A DNA stretch of 64,000 bases, from the NCBI GenBank assembly GCA_023511535.1, contig JAIMBK010000001.1:45493-109492 (forward strand), written 5' to 3'. The DNA comes from Armatimonadota bacterium (GTDB lineage Bacteria > Bacillota > Desulfotomaculia > Desulfotomaculales > Nap2-2B). Of the stretch, positions 43,995-52,446 are shown piece after piece. The position numbers were made by a program, and so were the translations under genes. Below the pieces are notes generated by a model, which saw nothing but the letters and a program-made list of their open reading frames with translations, did not search any database and was not told the origin of the DNA. Within the stretch, counting starts at the first letter, position 1. Each line of letters opens with the position of its first letter.

Positions 43995-46094
43995 GTGACG
44001 CTGTCCAGCCTCCTGAAACCAGAAGCGGTAGCAATCGTCGGCGCCTCCAGGACTCCCGGAAAAATAGGCAACTTTCTGGTGAAAAATATCATCGAGTCAG
44101 GCTACGGAGGGAAAGTTTACCCGATCAACCCCAGGGAGGTAGAAATCGAAGGACTAAAATGTTATCCTGATCTGGCGGCCGTGCAAAAGAAGATCGATCT
44201 GGCGGTGGTCGCCGTCCCGGCGGCCCGCACCCCGGAAGCGGCCGAACAGTGCGGACGGGCCGGGGTAAAGGGCCTCGTTGTTATTTCCGCCGGCTTCAAG
44301 GAAGTGGGGCCGGCCGGAATGGCTTTAGAAAAGGAACTTTTGCGCATCTGCCGGAATTACGGAATGCGCCTGGTGGGACCCAATTGCGTAGGTGTCATCG
44401 ACACCCACACCCCGCTGAACGCTTCTTTCTCCGGAACCTATCCGCAGCCGGGAAACATCGCCTTTATCTCCCAGAGCGGAGCCATGCTGGTGGCCATTCT
44501 GGACTGGTCGCGCAAGAGCAGGCTCGGCTTTTCGAAAGTAATCAGCCTGGGCAACAAAACAGATTTAAACGAAGCTGATTTTATCGCCGACGCTGCCGAC
44601 GATCCCGAGACAAAGGTAATCCTCTGCTATATCGAAGACGTGGCCGACGGCTCCCAGTTTTTAGAAGTTGCCCGCGCGGCCAGCCGCAAAAAACCGGTGA
44701 TTGTTTATAAAAGCGGAACCAGCGCCGCGGGCGCCCGGGCGGCCTCTTCCCACACCGGCGCCCTGGCCGGCAGTGACCTGGCTTACGAAACGGCCTTCCG
44801 GCAGGCAGGAGTAATCCGGGCCCGCAGCATGGCGGAATTATTCGACCTGGCCGGAGCTTTCGTCACCCAGCCGGTCCCGGACGGCGATAAAGTGGCCGTG
44901 GTCACCAACGCAGGCGGCCCGGGCATCATCACTACCGATAATATTGAAAAGATCAATCTGAAGATGGCCCGCTTCCAGAAGGAGACCACCGAAGCCCTGC
45001 GCGCCCGGCTGCCCGCGGCGGCGGCCATTTACAACCCGGTGGACGTGCTCGGCGACGGCGGCCCCGACCGCTACCGAAGCGCCTTCGAGCTCGTCCTGGC
45101 CGACCCGGGAGTAGACAGCGTGCTGGTTCTCCTCTGTCCTGCCGCGGCCACCGACAGCGAAAAGATTGCCCGCGCCCTGCTGGAGGTGCAGCGCCACAAC
45201 CGGCACAAGCCCGTTTTCGGCGTTTTTTTAGGCGGCGAATTCCTGGGCAAAGGCAGGAGCCTCTTCGAACAGGCCGGCATCCCCTGTTTTACCTTTCCCG
45301 AACCGGCCGTCCTGGCCATCGGGGGAATGGTCCGCTTCAGCCAGCTGAAAAAGATCCCCGCCGATGAGCCGGCGGAACAATTCAATAACTTGCAGCAAGA
45401 TATCGTCCAAAACACTCTCGAAAAGGTGAAAAATGAAGGCCGGCTGGTTCTTTTAGGCAGCGAGGCGGCCCGGGTGGTCTCCGCTTACGGCATCCCGGCG
45501 GCCCCCATCCACCTGGCCACCACCCCGGAAGAAGCGGCCGAAATAGCGCAAGCAATCGGCTTCCCGGTGGTCATGAAAGTAGCCTCCCCCCAGATCATGC
45601 ATAAAACCGACGTGGGCGGCATCCTGACCAATCTCCAAACGGCCGGCGAGGTCCGGAAAGGTTTCATTCAAATCAGCGAAAACGTTCACCGCTATTTCCC
45701 GGACCTGGCCATCCACGGAGTGGAAGTGCAAAAAATGATGCCCAGGGGCGACGAGGTGTTGATCGGCATGACCAGGGACGTTCAATTCGGCCCGCTGATC
45801 GCCTTCGGCCTGGGCGGGATTTACGTCAATTTACTCAAAGATGTCGCCTTCCGGCTGGCCCACCGGTTGACCAGAAGAGAAATCCGGAGCATGATTATGG
45901 AAACGAAGGCTTACACGCTTCTGCGGGGTTACCGGGGAGAAAAACCCAAGGACATCAAATCCCTGGTGGAAATAATCGCCCGGGCGGCCAGGCTGGCCGT
46001 GGATTTCCCGGCCATCACCGAAATGGACATCAACCCGCTTTTTGCTTACCCGGACGGGGCAGTTGCCCTGGATGTTAAAATTACTATCTCATGA
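43995..46094 (+). CDS. ADP-forming acyl-CoA synthetase, fused alpha-beta
   Basis: This 699-residue enzyme interconverts acyl-CoA, ADP and phosphate with acid, CoA and ATP. The CoA-binding domain begins LLKPEAVAIVGASRTPGKIGN. The ligase domain has the phospho-histidine loop SSHTGALAGSD near residue 252 and TNAGGPGI near 302. The C-terminal ATP-grasp part has VVMKVASPQIMHKTDVGGI near 533 and ITEMDINPL at the end. It can make ATP from acyl-CoA at the end of an oxidation or activate an acid. The start is GTG behind GGGAG. It is followed by a DRTGG-domain gene in the same operon, a pairing I know from other anaerobes. Confidence 0.93.
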   Translation: MTLSSLLKPEAVAIVGASRTPGKIGNFLVKNIIESGYGGKVYPINPREVEIEGLKCYPDLAAVQKKIDLAVVAVPAARTPEAAEQCGRAGVKGLVVISAGFKEVGPAGMALEKELLRICRNYGMRLVGPNCVGVIDTHTPLNASFSGTYPQPGNIAFISQSGAMLVAILDWSRKSRLGFSKVISLGNKTDLNEADFIADAADDPETKVILCYIEDVADGSQFLEVARAASRKKPVIVYKSGTSAAGARAASSHTGALAGSDLAYETAFRQAGVIRARSMAELFDLAGAFVTQPVPDGDKVAVVTNAGGPGIITTDNIEKINLKMARFQKETTEALRARLPAAAAIYNPVDVLGDGGPDRYRSAFELVLADPGVDSVLVLLCPAAATDSEKIARALLEVQRHNRHKPVFGVFLGGEFLGKGRSLFEQAGIPCFTFPEPAVLAIGGMVRFSQLKKIPADEPAEQFNNLQQDIVQNTLEKVKNEGRLVLLGSEAARVVSAYGIPAAPIHLATTPEEAAEIAQAIGFPVVMKVASPQIMHKTDVGGILTNLQTAGEVRKGFIQISENVHRYFPDLAIHGVEVQKMMPRGDEVLIGMTRDVQFGPLIAFGLGGIYVNLLKDVAFRLAHRLTRREIRSMIMETKAYTLLRGYRGEKPKDIKSLVEIIARAARLAVDFPAITEMDINPLFAYPDGAVALDVKITIS

Positions 46095-46104
46095 GGTGAA
46101 AAAA

Positions 46105-47163
46105 ATGAAAAATTTGTCGATCATCGGCACGGCAGGCAGCGGCAAAACAGCCGTTGCGCTCGGCCTGGCCCTGAAATTTCAGGAGCAGGGGTACCGGGTA
46201 GCCTACTTTAAGCCGGTCGGCCGTCCCCCCGGCGTAAAGGGGCAGGAGGACGAAGACGGGCTCCTGATGCAGCAGGTGCTGGGCCTTCCCCAGCCGCTCG
46301 AAACCATCGTCCCCTTCACCATCGGACCCTCTTATCTCTCCGGAAACCGGCCGGGCAACGTGACAGAGCAAATCCAGGAAGCTTACCGGCAGGTCGCCGA
46401 GGGAATGGATCTCGTCATTATCGGGGGGGCGGAATACCCCTATTTGATGGGCAGCCTGGGCGCGGACGCGCTGGCGCTGGCCCGGCTTTTCCAGGCGGCG
46501 GTTCTTTTTACCGTCCAGATTAAAAACGACTTCAGCCTGGACGAGGTAATTTTCTTCAACAATTATTTCGCTCAGGCGGGGGTTAATGTGCTGGGCAATA
46601 TTTTCAACAACGTCCCCCGGCCCTTCCTGGCCAAAACCGAGGGAGTTTACCGTTCCCTGCTGGCGGAAAGGGGCTACCGCACGCTGGGCGTGATCCCGAG
46701 CCGGCCGGAGATTGCCTGCCCGACCGTGGCCGAATATTACGAAGTGCTGGGCGGGGAGGTCCTTACCGGCGAGGACCGGCTGGAAAGAATCGTGGAAAAC
46801 GTGGTCATCGGCGCCATGACCATGGAAAGCGCCCTGGGGTATTTCCGGCGCTCGCCCAATAAAGCCGTGATTACCGGGGGAGACCGGGCTGACGTGGCTT
46901 TAGCCGCCCTGGAAACCAGCACCTCCGTAATCATCCTGACCGGCGGCCTTTACCCCGACGTCCGGGTGATCGCCCGCGCCGGCGAAAAGCGCGTCCCGGT
47001 CATTCTGGTTCATTACGACACTTACACCACCATCGAAAAAATCAGCGAAACCGAACGGCGCATTCACCCCGGTGACCGGCGGGGGATTGAAATGGCCCGG
47101 GAAAACGTGGAAAAATACTGCGATTGGGCGGGAATTCTGGAGGCCCTGGGCAAGCTTCCTTGA
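46105..47163 (+). CDS. BioD/CobQ-like P-loop plus DRTGG domain protein
   Basis: A 352-residue protein. The N-terminal P-loop domain (SIIGTAGSGKTAVALGLAL, residues 4-22; FKPVGRPPG near 38) is of the dethiobiotin-synthase/CobQ-like type found at the N-terminus of some phosphotransacetylases. The second half holds a DRTGG domain (TVAEYYEVLGGEVLTGEDRL, VVIGAMTMESALGYFRR, AVITGGDRADVALAALE). It resembles the regulatory N-terminal part of Pta without the catalytic domain. It lies 10 bp after the ADP-forming synthetase gene, so a role in regulating that enzyme is likely. I start at the ATG at 46105 behind GAGGTGA rather than the TTG inside the upstream gene. Confidence 0.85.
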   Translation: MKNLSIIGTAGSGKTAVALGLALKFQEQGYRVAYFKPVGRPPGVKGQEDEDGLLMQQVLGLPQPLETIVPFTIGPSYLSGNRPGNVTEQIQEAYRQVAEGMDLVIIGGAEYPYLMGSLGADALALARLFQAAVLFTVQIKNDFSLDEVIFFNNYFAQAGVNVLGNIFNNVPRPFLAKTEGVYRSLLAERGYRTLGVIPSRPEIACPTVAEYYEVLGGEVLTGEDRLERIVENVVIGAMTMESALGYFRRSPNKAVITGGDRADVALAALETSTSVIILTGGLYPDVRVIARAGEKRVPVILVHYDTYTTIEKISETERRIHPGDRRGIEMARENVEKYCDWAGILEALGKLP

Positions 47164-47368: not shown

Positions 47369-48796
47369 TCAGGCTGTTCCGGTTCCCCGGCTGTTTTGAA
47401 TCTCCTTTAGCTTTTCCCAGAGTTCATCCACCTGCTTTTGAGTCTCTTCCAGCGTACCCTCGTTATGGATGACAAAGTCGGCGTAACCCACCTTTTCTTC
47501 GATGGGCAGCTGGGCTTTCAGCCTGTTAACCGCTTCCTCGCGGCTGATCCCGTCCCGCTCCATAAGCCTTTTGATCTGTACCTCCTCCGGAGTATAAACG
47601 ACCAAAAGCTTGTGGAACATGTACTGGAGGTTGAGCTCGATCATCAAGGGAATATCCACCTGGATGATCGCATTTGGATCTTTAGAAATCAATTTTTCAA
47701 GCTCCTTGACAAACTCCTCGTTAATCCTGGGGTGAGTAAAACTTTCCAGTTTTTTCCTTTTCTCTATATCCCGGAAAACGATATCCGACAGCTTCTTACG
47801 GTCCAGGGTCCGGTCCTCCTGGAGAACCTGCTCGCCGAAATAGGCCACAATATCCCTCCAGGCCGGCTGATCCGGCTCCACCACCTTGCGGGCCAGCAGG
47901 TCAAAATCAATTACCGGGGCCCCCTTTTTCTTCAGCATCTCAACCACAGTACTTTTCCCCGTTGCAATCCCCCCGGTTACCCCCAGAAGCAGGCGGCGAT
48001 CATTCTTTCCCCGGATCGCCTCCACCTGTCCAATGGTCCCGTAGGAACCGGGGAAGGCATTGGTCAGATCCTGTTCGGCCCCGGCAAAGCTGATCGGGTA
48101 GCGGATTCCCCGGCGGTAAAGGGCCTCCATCCCCCGCAGAGCCTTTTCCATCTGATCCGCCGGCACGGCCATGACCAGGTCTTCGTCCTGGGCGTGGCCG
48201 TAACGCCTTTCTCCGTAACAGGGAATGGTCAGCGAAGGCTTTCCCGTCAGGTAGCACCGGGCGATGGCGTCGGAGCAGGATGACTCGCCCACGCAGGAAA
48301 AATGCATAACCTCGTAGTCTTCAAACTGGAGGGAGTTGATCAAAAGCATCATCTGGGCCGGGTTGGCATAGATGAGAACGAGATCGGGTTCAAAAGGGTT
48401 GTAAACCAGGGGGGCCATGGCTACCGCCTCGTATTTTCCCAGCGGGAGCCGGGGAATGGAGGCCTCGTATTTCCTGGCGTCCGCACGGGTCTTCACCCAG
48501 ACGATGCTCCGGAACGTTCCGTCCTTATAAATCTCGGGAATTTCCGTCAAACCCAGGATGGAAGGACAGACCGGAGAGACGAAGTCGGACAGTTCGGCCC
48601 CGACCGTCCAGTCAAAATTTCTGACCAGGGTGATCAACTGGCAAAGGGTAACCTTTTTGGCCAGCCGGCGCATGAAGGGGATCTTTTCCAGTTCCGTCTT
48701 GTCCGCGAGCATCTTGAAGGCTACCGGAAACGATTTCAGCCGCATCAGCAGTTCCATTCTCCGGATGATTTTTTCCCAGTCTCTTTTTGTTTGCAT
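47369..48796 (-). CDS. coaE: DUF169-dephospho-CoA kinase fusion
   Basis: A 475-residue fusion. Residues 1 to about 260 are a DUF169 domain (SFPVAFKMLADKTELEKIP, KVTLCQLITLVRNFDWTV, ISFAGAEQDL-type region), with a cysteine-bearing stretch FSCVGESSCSDAIARCYLTG near residues 165-184. Residues about 265-466 are a full dephospho-CoA kinase: P-loop GVTGGIATGKSTVVEML, DFDLLARKVVEPD, FTHPRINEEF and VDIPLMIELNL. The kinase phosphorylates dephospho-CoA to CoA, the last step of CoA synthesis. DUF169 has no agreed function. It is the last gene of a three-gene operon with two DUF2889-like proteins. Whether this is the cell's only CoaE cannot be told. Confidence 0.9.
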   Translation of the reverse strand: MQTKRDWEKIIRRMELLMRLKSFPVAFKMLADKTELEKIPFMRRLAKKVTLCQLITLVRNFDWTVGAELSDFVSPVCPSILGLTEIPEIYKDGTFRSIVWVKTRADARKYEASIPRLPLGKYEAVAMAPLVYNPFEPDLVLIYANPAQMMLLINSLQFEDYEVMHFSCVGESSCSDAIARCYLTGKPSLTIPCYGERRYGHAQDEDLVMAVPADQMEKALRGMEALYRRGIRYPISFAGAEQDLTNAFPGSYGTIGQVEAIRGKNDRRLLLGVTGGIATGKSTVVEMLKKKGAPVIDFDLLARKVVEPDQPAWRDIVAYFGEQVLQEDRTLDRKKLSDIVFRDIEKRKKLESFTHPRINEEFVKELEKLISKDPNAIIQVDIPLMIELNLQYMFHKLLVVYTPEEVQIKRLMERDGISREEAVNRLKAQLPIEEKVGYADFVIHNEGTLEETQKQVDELWEKLKEIQNSRGTGTA

Positions 48797-50580: not shown

Positions 50581-50742
50581 TTTATTGTCCGGTTTTTCCC
50601 GAAAAATATTGATTACCGCCGGCGGGATGGAACAATAAACCTCCCGGCCGGGAAACAGGCCAAGCCTGCCGCCCTCTCTTTTCGCCACCAGGACAGAAAG
50701 CTTTTCCCCGGCATCAATCGTTACCTTGAAGAATAACCCCTT
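50572..50742 (-). pseudogene. Out-of-frame TOBE end of modC
   Basis: Read in another minus-strand frame, these 57 codons give KGLFFKVTIDAGEKLSVLVA, then EGGRLGLFPGREVYCSIPPA and a TAA. This is the normal end of a ModC-type TOBE domain. It continues the upstream protein exactly where that protein's own frame runs into nonsense (CCEGVILQGND), so a frameshift has separated the two parts. Confidence 0.85.
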
Positions 50743-51658
50743 CGCAGCAAATGAGAATTTTTCCCCGCAGACAATTGCCGGGTTGCGGGGAATTATTCAG
50801 CAGAATATCCTCCGGCCGGACGGAAAAGCCCACCGGACCGGATAAGCCGGTATTCACTTCGAGCAAAGCTCCGTCCAGGCGAACAAATTTTTTCCCATCC
50901 CGGCAGATAATCTCGCCGGTAAAGATATTTTCCGCCCCTACAAAGCGGGCCGCCGCCGCCGAGCGGGGCCGGGCAAAAATTTCTTCGGGCGGGCCTACTT
51001 GCAGCAGCCGCCCCCCGTCCAAGACAGCGATGCGGTCGGCCAGGAAAAACGCTTCTTCAAAATCGTGGGTCACCTGCAGGGTCAGCGTCCCGGCAATTTT
51101 GTGCAGCTGCCGCAACTCTTGCTGAAGCGCCTCCCTGTTCCGGGGGTCGAGAGCCGCCAAAGGTTCGTCGAGCAAAAGGATTTGGGGTTCCGTCACCAGG
51201 GCGCGGGCCAGGGCCACGCGCTGCTGCTCCCCGCCGCTGAGGGTGCCGGGAAAACGCCGGAGAAGGTGGGAAATACCTAATAAGGCCGCAATATCTTCGA
51301 TTTTCTTTTCCAGGCCGTTTTTTGACCAGCGGTTTACCCTTGCTCCGAAAGCAATATTCTGCTTTACATTTAAATGGGGAAAAAGAACGTAGTCCTGGTA
51401 AACAAAGCCGAACCGCCGCTGTTCCGGCGGCCAGGCGGTAATGTTGACGCCGTCGAACCAGATTTCCCCGGCGTCTACAGAATGGATGCCGGCGACCGTT
51501 TCCAGCAGCACCGTCTTCCCCGCCCCCGTTGGCCCCAGGACGACAAAATATTCACCGGGGGCAACCTCCAATGAAATATCCTGCAGAGAAAAGCCGCCGA
51601 TCTTTTTTGTTACCCCGGATAGCCGAAGCTTTCCCGCTTCCGGCAAACTGTTTCTCAC
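50714..51658 (-). CDS. modC: Molybdate/tungstate-type ABC ATPase, frameshifted at its 3' end
   Basis: This 314-residue product contains a complete ABC ATPase: GPTGAGKTVLLETVAG (Walker A), VYQDYVLFPHLNVKQNIAFG (Q-loop), TLSGGEQQRVALARAL and ILLLDEPLAALD. A regulatory TOBE part starts near residue 240 (ENIFTGEIICRDGKK, GFSVRPEDILL). The last eleven residues are out of frame; the real ending is in the frame at 50572-50742. The nucleotide-binding domain is intact, so the protein may still work. The start overlaps modB by 4 bp (ATGA). An apparent frameshift may also be a sequencing error. Confidence 0.85.
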   Translation of the reverse strand: MRNSLPEAGKLRLSGVTKKIGGFSLQDISLEVAPGEYFVVLGPTGAGKTVLLETVAGIHSVDAGEIWFDGVNITAWPPEQRRFGFVYQDYVLFPHLNVKQNIAFGARVNRWSKNGLEKKIEDIAALLGISHLLRRFPGTLSGGEQQRVALARALVTEPQILLLDEPLAALDPRNREALQQELRQLHKIAGTLTLQVTHDFEEAFFLADRIAVLDGGRLLQVGPPEEIFARPRSAAAARFVGAENIFTGEIICRDGKKFVRLDGALLEVNTGLSGPVGFSVRPEDILLNNSPQPGNCLRGKILICCEGVILQGND

Positions 51659-52446
51659 AGGCCGGACACCCGCCCGGGGAGGCCGGCTCCTTTCCTTTCC
51701 AAAGCGGCCAGCGAAATTAAAGAAATCAGGATCAAAATGGTTGCGGAAGCCATCAGCGCGTCCAGGTCGCCGGTGGACATGTGCAGGTAGATGGAAACCG
51801 GCAGGGTTTCCGTCTTAAAGCGAATCGCCCCGGCCAGCATGAGAACGGCCCCGAATTCTCCTAAAGCCTTGCTCCAGGTAAGAATCAACCCGGCTAACAG
51901 ACCATTTTTAATCAGGGGCAGAGTGACCCTGGTAAAAGCCCGTCCCGGACTGCAGCCAAGTGTTCTGGCCACGTATTCCAGGCGCACGTCGACCGCTTCA
52001 ATGGCTCCTTTGAGCACGGTTATCAGTCCGGAAACGTTGACAAAAAATTGGGCCATGATAATTCCCGGCACGGTAAAAACAAAGTGCAGGCCAATTCTTT
52101 CCAGCGCTTCCCCGCAAGCCGTGGTGCCGAAAAAGAGCAGCAGGCAAACACCGGAAACCAGGGGCGGCAGGCTTAAGGGAATTCTCAAGAGGCTGGCGAC
52201 CGCCCCCCGGCCGGGCAAACGGTAGCGGGCGAGCGCGTAGGCTGCCGGCAGCGCAACAAGCAAACACAAGGCCGTCGAAACAAAAGATGTATACAGGCTT
52301 AATTTGACCGCAAAAACAATCTCCGGCACTTTTAAAGCCCTGTAAAGGCCGGGCAGCCCCCGGACGAAAACGGTGCCCACGACAGCCAGGATAAAAAACA
52401 AGAGAAGATAGGTCACAACGAGATTGCCAAGCTTAAATAATTTCAT
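51655..52446 (-). CDS. modB: Molybdate/tungstate-type ABC permease
   Basis: This 263-residue inner-membrane permease has about six helices (residues 12-32, 46-72, 84-105 and so on). The coupling-loop region ARTLGCSPGRAFTRVTLPLIKNGLLAG near 160-186 is the EAA motif of the ModB/CysT/WtpB group, and SKALGEFGAVLMLAG near 190 is a further family mark. It is preceded by the binding-protein gene (45 bp) and overlaps modC. Confidence 0.9.
   Translation of the reverse strand: MKLFKLGNLVVTYLLLFFILAVVGTVFVRGLPGLYRALKVPEIVFAVKLSLYTSFVSTALCLLVALPAAYALARYRLPGRGAVASLLRIPLSLPPLVSGVCLLLFFGTTACGEALERIGLHFVFTVPGIIMAQFFVNVSGLITVLKGAIEAVDVRLEYVARTLGCSPGRAFTRVTLPLIKNGLLAGLILTWSKALGEFGAVLMLAGAIRFKTETLPVSIYLHMSTGDLDALMASATILILISLISLAALERKGAGLPGRVSGL

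Follow-up and report, generated by a model that had tools for sequence, protein, structure and literature searches.

The window, by which we mean the entire 64,000-nucleotide stretch of DNA analyzed here from a bacterium that GTDB places among the Bacillota, carries an uninterrupted frame from ATG to stop in which a DUF169 domain is followed by a dephospho-CoA kinase (CoaE) domain (Table 1). The start codon is preceded by a good ribosome-binding site (GGAGAAGAAT-ATG), and both domains score far above their Pfam cutoffs of 27 bits: DUF169 (PF02596) reaches 178.8 bits (E 1.7e-52) and is covered nearly completely, from position 2 to 207 of the 209 in the profile, and CoaE (PF01121) reaches 189.5 bits (E 5.5e-56), with another 184.5 bits against a cutoff of 65.55 for the dephospho-CoA kinase equivalog TIGR00152 on the fusion protein. 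Ordinary bacterial CoaE has about 200 residues, to which the fusion adds an N-terminal half of about 265. The original prediction had spoken of a 260-residue DUF169 domain, a length that fits this half as a whole but not the Pfam domain itself, which spans 207 residues and leaves a remainder that includes a low-confidence linker.

Two partner genes lie upstream on the same strand. The first, 53 bases from the fusion gene, encodes a DUF2889 protein that also carries the PHP and PHP_C domains of a phosphoesterase, and the second, 15 bases further, encodes another DUF2889 protein that aligns to the DUF2889 part of the first at 99.6% in hhalign. Genes for the ATP-binding and permease components of an ABC transporter are found upstream of this group (50714-52446, reverse strand); their nearest model is tungstate WtpC, whose cutoff of 440 bits they miss with a score of 339. 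On the other side (43995-47163, forward strand), an acyl-CoA synthetase with CoA-binding and ATP-grasp domains is followed by a DRTGG/AAA_26 protein that resembles the N-terminal part of phosphate acetyltransferase, a pair that is not conserved beside the fusion elsewhere.

Table 1. Features of the fusion gene and its partner genes, in window coordinates.
Feature	Position	Strand	Basis
DUF169-CoaE fusion gene, 475 aa	47369..48796	(-)	Open frame; Pfam/NCBIfam; 47 loci elsewhere
CoaE (dephospho-CoA kinase, PF01121), residues 270-450	47447..47989	(-)	Pfam, TIGR00152; only CoaE found in genome
P-loop GVTGGIATGKST, residues 272-283	47948..47983	(-)	Alignment with solved CoaE chains
Inter-domain stretch, residues 221-269	47990..48136	(-)	No stop, no start with ribosome-binding site
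DUF169 domain (PF02596), residues 14-220	48137..48757	(-)	Pfam; AlphaFold2 pLDDT 87.9, pTM 0.85
CVGESSCSDAIARC segment with C168, C174, C181	48254..48295	(-)	51 fusions; 32 stand-alone rows compared
C52, invariant cysteine	48641..48643	(-)	All 47 DUF169 rows examined
DUF2889 fused to PHP phosphoesterase, 370 aa	48850..49962	(-)	Pfam; CehA/McbA-like at cutoff; neighbor conservation
Second DUF2889 protein, 168 aa	49978..50484	(-)	Pfam at cutoff; hhalign 99.6%; neighbor conservation

A stop or start between the two domains had been named beforehand as the sign that they are made separately. There is no stop, and the single in-frame ATG, GTG or TTG in this stretch, a GTG at codon 258, lacks a Shine-Dalgarno match, so the fusion survives this test. 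The same architecture was sought elsewhere by scanning GTDB contigs with the window protein, which returned 62 relatives, and by counting frames with profiles on their six-frame translations, which found both domains in one frame at 47 of the 62. These 47 further loci rule out an artefact of sequencing or assembly, and the fusion is real; the predicted union of DUF169 and CoaE in one protein is borne out alike by the open frame, the Pfam and NCBIfam matches and the fused loci in other genomes.

Hosts of the fusion are mostly Desulfobacterota, the exceptions being Desulfallas sp. Bu1-1 (L034, 87% identity), Peptococcaceae BRH_c8a (L035, 82%) and a record labelled SAR324 (L078). Among evenly drawn genomes, the fusion was found in 28 of 296 from the phylum of Desulfonema magnum and, apart from the window genome, in none of 300 from the window's own phylum. 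All fused rows form one clade (100*) in a tree of the DUF169 halves, the lone member without an in-frame CoaE half being a broken fusion (L136), and as far as this tree shows the fusion is single in origin. Its three Bacillota rows form a group (96*) nested within the Desulfobacterota rows, a placement that fits one apparent lateral transfer into a small group of Bacillota including the window genome. In the tree of the CoaE halves, a clade (99*) combines 27 fused with 12 unfused rows. The position of these unfused rows inside the fused clade suggests that some fusions came apart, and they are probably either kinase halves that separated again or relatives from before the fusion. At one locus (L085, 1941-3876), a DUF169 gene adjoins a CoaE gene close to the fused type, the two being separate genes in opposite orientation.

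The kinase half resembles solved CoaE proteins (PF01121, TIGR00152; 2if2, 1n3b) in matching at full length above the equivalog cutoff and in having the P-loop and conserved residues. The P-loop GVTGGIATGKST is accompanied by D297, D299, R303, H355, R414 and N445; which of these positions are catalytic we take from general knowledge of the family. All fusions examined except one (L075, see below) have the P-loop and the other conserved active-site positions intact, with R303K in L034 and D415E in L128 as conservative changes. Multidomain dephospho-CoA kinases as such are known: the CoaE of Mycobacterium tuberculosis is joined to UPF0157, which differs from DUF169 and sits C-terminally and to which the title of PMC2765170 assigns a role in kinase folding, and bifunctional CoA synthase (2f6r) likewise has a different partner domain. 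The window protein stays below the cutoff of NF002879, the model for the M. tuberculosis-type CoaE with UPF0157 (178 vs 215 bits). Nothing in the literature searched joins DUF169 with CoaE or dephospho-CoA kinase, and the architecture may well be visible in domain databases.

The fusion is the one PF01121 match of the window genome, where a second CoaE may have been missed because the genome is 91.6% complete. Including this genome, none of 11 genomes checked has the archaeal-type kinase PF04019 (PMC6650551 deals with the archaeal dephospho-CoA kinase). In 44 of the 52 genomes that carry the fusion unbroken (22/26, 21/25 and the window genome), no other CoaE was found; among these are the chromosome-level records NZ_CP061800.1 (Desulfonema magnum), CP070746.1 and CP070694.1, and the even sample of the phylum gave the same status for 24 of 28 fusion genomes. 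CoA synthesis, including the CoaE step, is essential, and since the fusion is the only CoaE found in these 44 genomes, the fused kinase should be active wherever it is the sole copy.

The partner genes are conserved along with the fusion. Same-strand neighbors at the 47 fused loci include PHP at 40, DUF2889 at 40 and both at 39; 6 loci have neither partner nearby, with 3 of these 6 short of flanking sequence, and in about 9 loci the gene order is reversed, with the fusion first and the partners after it. The same families also stand in the same order with an unfused DUF169 gene in four relatives of the window genome (G001, G002, G005 and G039) and at two loci of Desulfobacterota (L141 and L142), and CoaE lies elsewhere in those of these genomes where we looked for it. 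Since the same operon thus occurs with a stand-alone DUF169, it is simplest to assume that the operon is older and that CoaE would have joined it later.

Like the CehA/McbA PHP phosphoesterases, the 370-residue operon partner combines PHP with PHP_C, and it scores exactly at the domain cutoff of that group. Among substrate models, even the nearest are too weak; the PHP type of nucleoside 3',5'-bisphosphatase, for instance, gives 27 bits against an equivalog cutoff of 400. The confident model of DUF2889 (pLDDT 93.7) has no structural match in the PDB by Foldseek, and the literature found on this family gives no function. Its C-x-x-A and C-R-H-x-A-N-L motifs had raised the idea of an IscU/NifU-like protein, which was rejected with an hhalign probability below 1% and no such fold among the Foldseek hits listed.

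The fused DUF169 half matches the whole family profile (PF02596, COG2043; 179 bits) and carries C52, C77, C174 and C193 in common with stand-alone members, the form in which the mostly uncharacterized DUF169 proteins examined elsewhere usually occur. C52, which lies outside the CVGESSCSDAIARC segment, is found in 47 of 47 DUF169 rows, fused and unfused, and C77, C174 and C193 are almost invariant across both kinds. The CVGESSCSDAIARC segment had been picked out as conserved-looking from the window alone, and rightly so: C168, C174 and C181 vary little or not at all among 51 fusions, C174 recurs in 30 of 32 stand-alone rows, and C168 and C181 extend to the nearer subfamily. The fold is predicted with confidence, Foldseek found no structural relative in the PDB with E <= 0.001, and a search for relatives by sequence profile found none; in the literature, DUF169/COG2043 receives passing mentions only.

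Two loci retain DUF169 next to a decayed kinase half. At the first (L075, 5983-7407, forward strand; genome G648), the frame is open and encodes a pseudokinase half with K281T, S282A, D297N, R303A, H355Q, R414W and N445D, while the DUF169 half is 83% identical to that of the window and keeps C52, C77, C168, C174, C181 and C193; another CoaE is encoded separately in this genome. At the second (L136, 5254-6614, reverse strand; genome G355), frameshifts disrupt the kinase half but leave DUF169 intact, and the genome again has a second CoaE. Both come from draft or metagenome assemblies, so that the frameshifts of L136 are possibly sequencing errors, an explanation that is harder to apply to the replacements in L075. 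In genomes with a second CoaE, the kinase half was lost at 2 of 9 fusion loci examined, and no such loss was seen without a second CoaE among the fusions examined, both small numbers. Because the kinase half decayed twice in the presence of a second CoaE while DUF169 stayed intact, DUF169 appears to have a job of its own that works without an active kinase, and not to be just a kinase switch.

Several DUF169 genes are found among genes of acyl-CoA metabolism. The broken fusion L136 sits in a cluster of acyl-CoA dehydrogenase-like, thiolase and acyl-CoA ligase genes; DUF169 genes at L136 and L139 adjoin acyl-CoA ligases, thiolases and ChsH2-type proteins; at L094 the neighbors are an HGD-type dehydratase component and a BadF/BcrA-type ATPase; and on a Cupriavidus plasmid DUF169 adjoins a long-chain acyl-CoA ligase. 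Around 18 distant Bacillota DUF169 genes, the 90 neighbors scanned were mixed (TauE/SafE 6, AMP-binding 4) and not decisive, and we claim no enrichment of acyl-CoA genes there.

Other neighborhoods are recorded here as separate observations. The TauE/SafE exporters beside the distant Bacillota genes (L194-L213) recall Dde_0597/0598 of Desulfovibrio alaskensis (TauE and DUF169), whose interruption was associated with high fitness under nitrate (PMC4001038). The window genome itself has a second, distant stand-alone DUF169 gene on contig C60 (L167, 6566-7450, forward strand) with 23% identity to that of the fusion. At three Dehalococcoidia-type loci (L088, L086 and L093), as read from the sequence, DUF169 comes after YidC- and Jag-like genes near ribosomal genes, with an isoleucyl-tRNA synthetase-like gene following it.

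With a probability of about 0.6, we interpret the fusion as a working kinase and a separate operon unit, DUF169, that were joined once within Desulfobacterota and passed laterally to a few Bacillota. The product would be one two-part protein in which the C-terminal CoaE completes coenzyme A synthesis by adding the 3'-phosphate, and DUF169 would be a separate, cysteine-rich functional unit of the conserved operon of DUF2889, DUF2889-PHP and DUF169. Beyond this, DUF169 and the PHP phosphoesterase may work on coenzyme A or a compound derived from it, and the fusion may couple CoA production to a CoA-using process. Such a CoA-linked role for DUF169 is the one we favor, as an unproven best guess based on guilt by association. 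A more specific version is quite speculative: the operon could be an undescribed CoA-handling module of anaerobes in which DUF169, by means of its cysteines, would be an enzyme or carrier for CoA or an acyl-CoA, the PHP protein would remove phosphate from a CoA-derived nucleotide, and the fusion would have placed the sole CoaE inside the module.

Alternatively, the fusion may be neutral packaging, in which adjacent duf169 and coaE genes with unrelated jobs lost a stop codon and co-expression is the only benefit. Mere adjacency of two genes can fix a fusion, and the single origin, the apparent later separations and the independent retention of DUF169 all fit two independent halves. We nevertheless consider this unlikely, given that the fusion is retained in most descendants, that it reached Bacillota and 2 of the 3 genomes there (L034 and L035) still have a separate CoaE, and that some stand-alone DUF169 genes lie inside acyl-CoA gene clusters. 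The original prediction had suggested that DUF169 may be a regulatory or redox/metal-sensing domain, and its cysteines could bind a metal or an iron-sulfur cluster to control the fused kinase and with it CoA supply. The conserved C52, C77, C174 and C193, the anaerobic groups from which most fusion hosts come (judged from record titles) and the maintenance of the fusion across 63-87% identity would suit such a sensor, but DUF169 stands alone in the same operon, it is intact in two lineages with a dead or broken kinase and another CoaE, and Foldseek found no structural relative in the PDB with such a role. Since DUF169 persists even in the absence of an active kinase, sensing is possible but improbable and not the simplest reading. 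It is hardly credible, finally, that the window encodes two separate proteins through an internal start or an assembly error: the domains do form separate genes in other genomes, but the 47 other fused loci refute an assembly error and the window gene has no internal start with a ribosome-binding site.

Returning to our preferred interpretation of a working kinase joined to a separate DUF169 unit, the fusion is functionally important; the CoaE step is essential, and being fused to CoaE is a strong hint about DUF169. It hints that the operon deals with coenzyme A and makes this idea testable, with natural controls in a genome whose fused kinase is dead and in genomes that have the same operon unfused. 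In this way, the fusion ties the uncharacterized families DUF169 and DUF2889, together with a PHP phosphoesterase, to the step that completes CoA synthesis in sulfate reducers of environmental importance.
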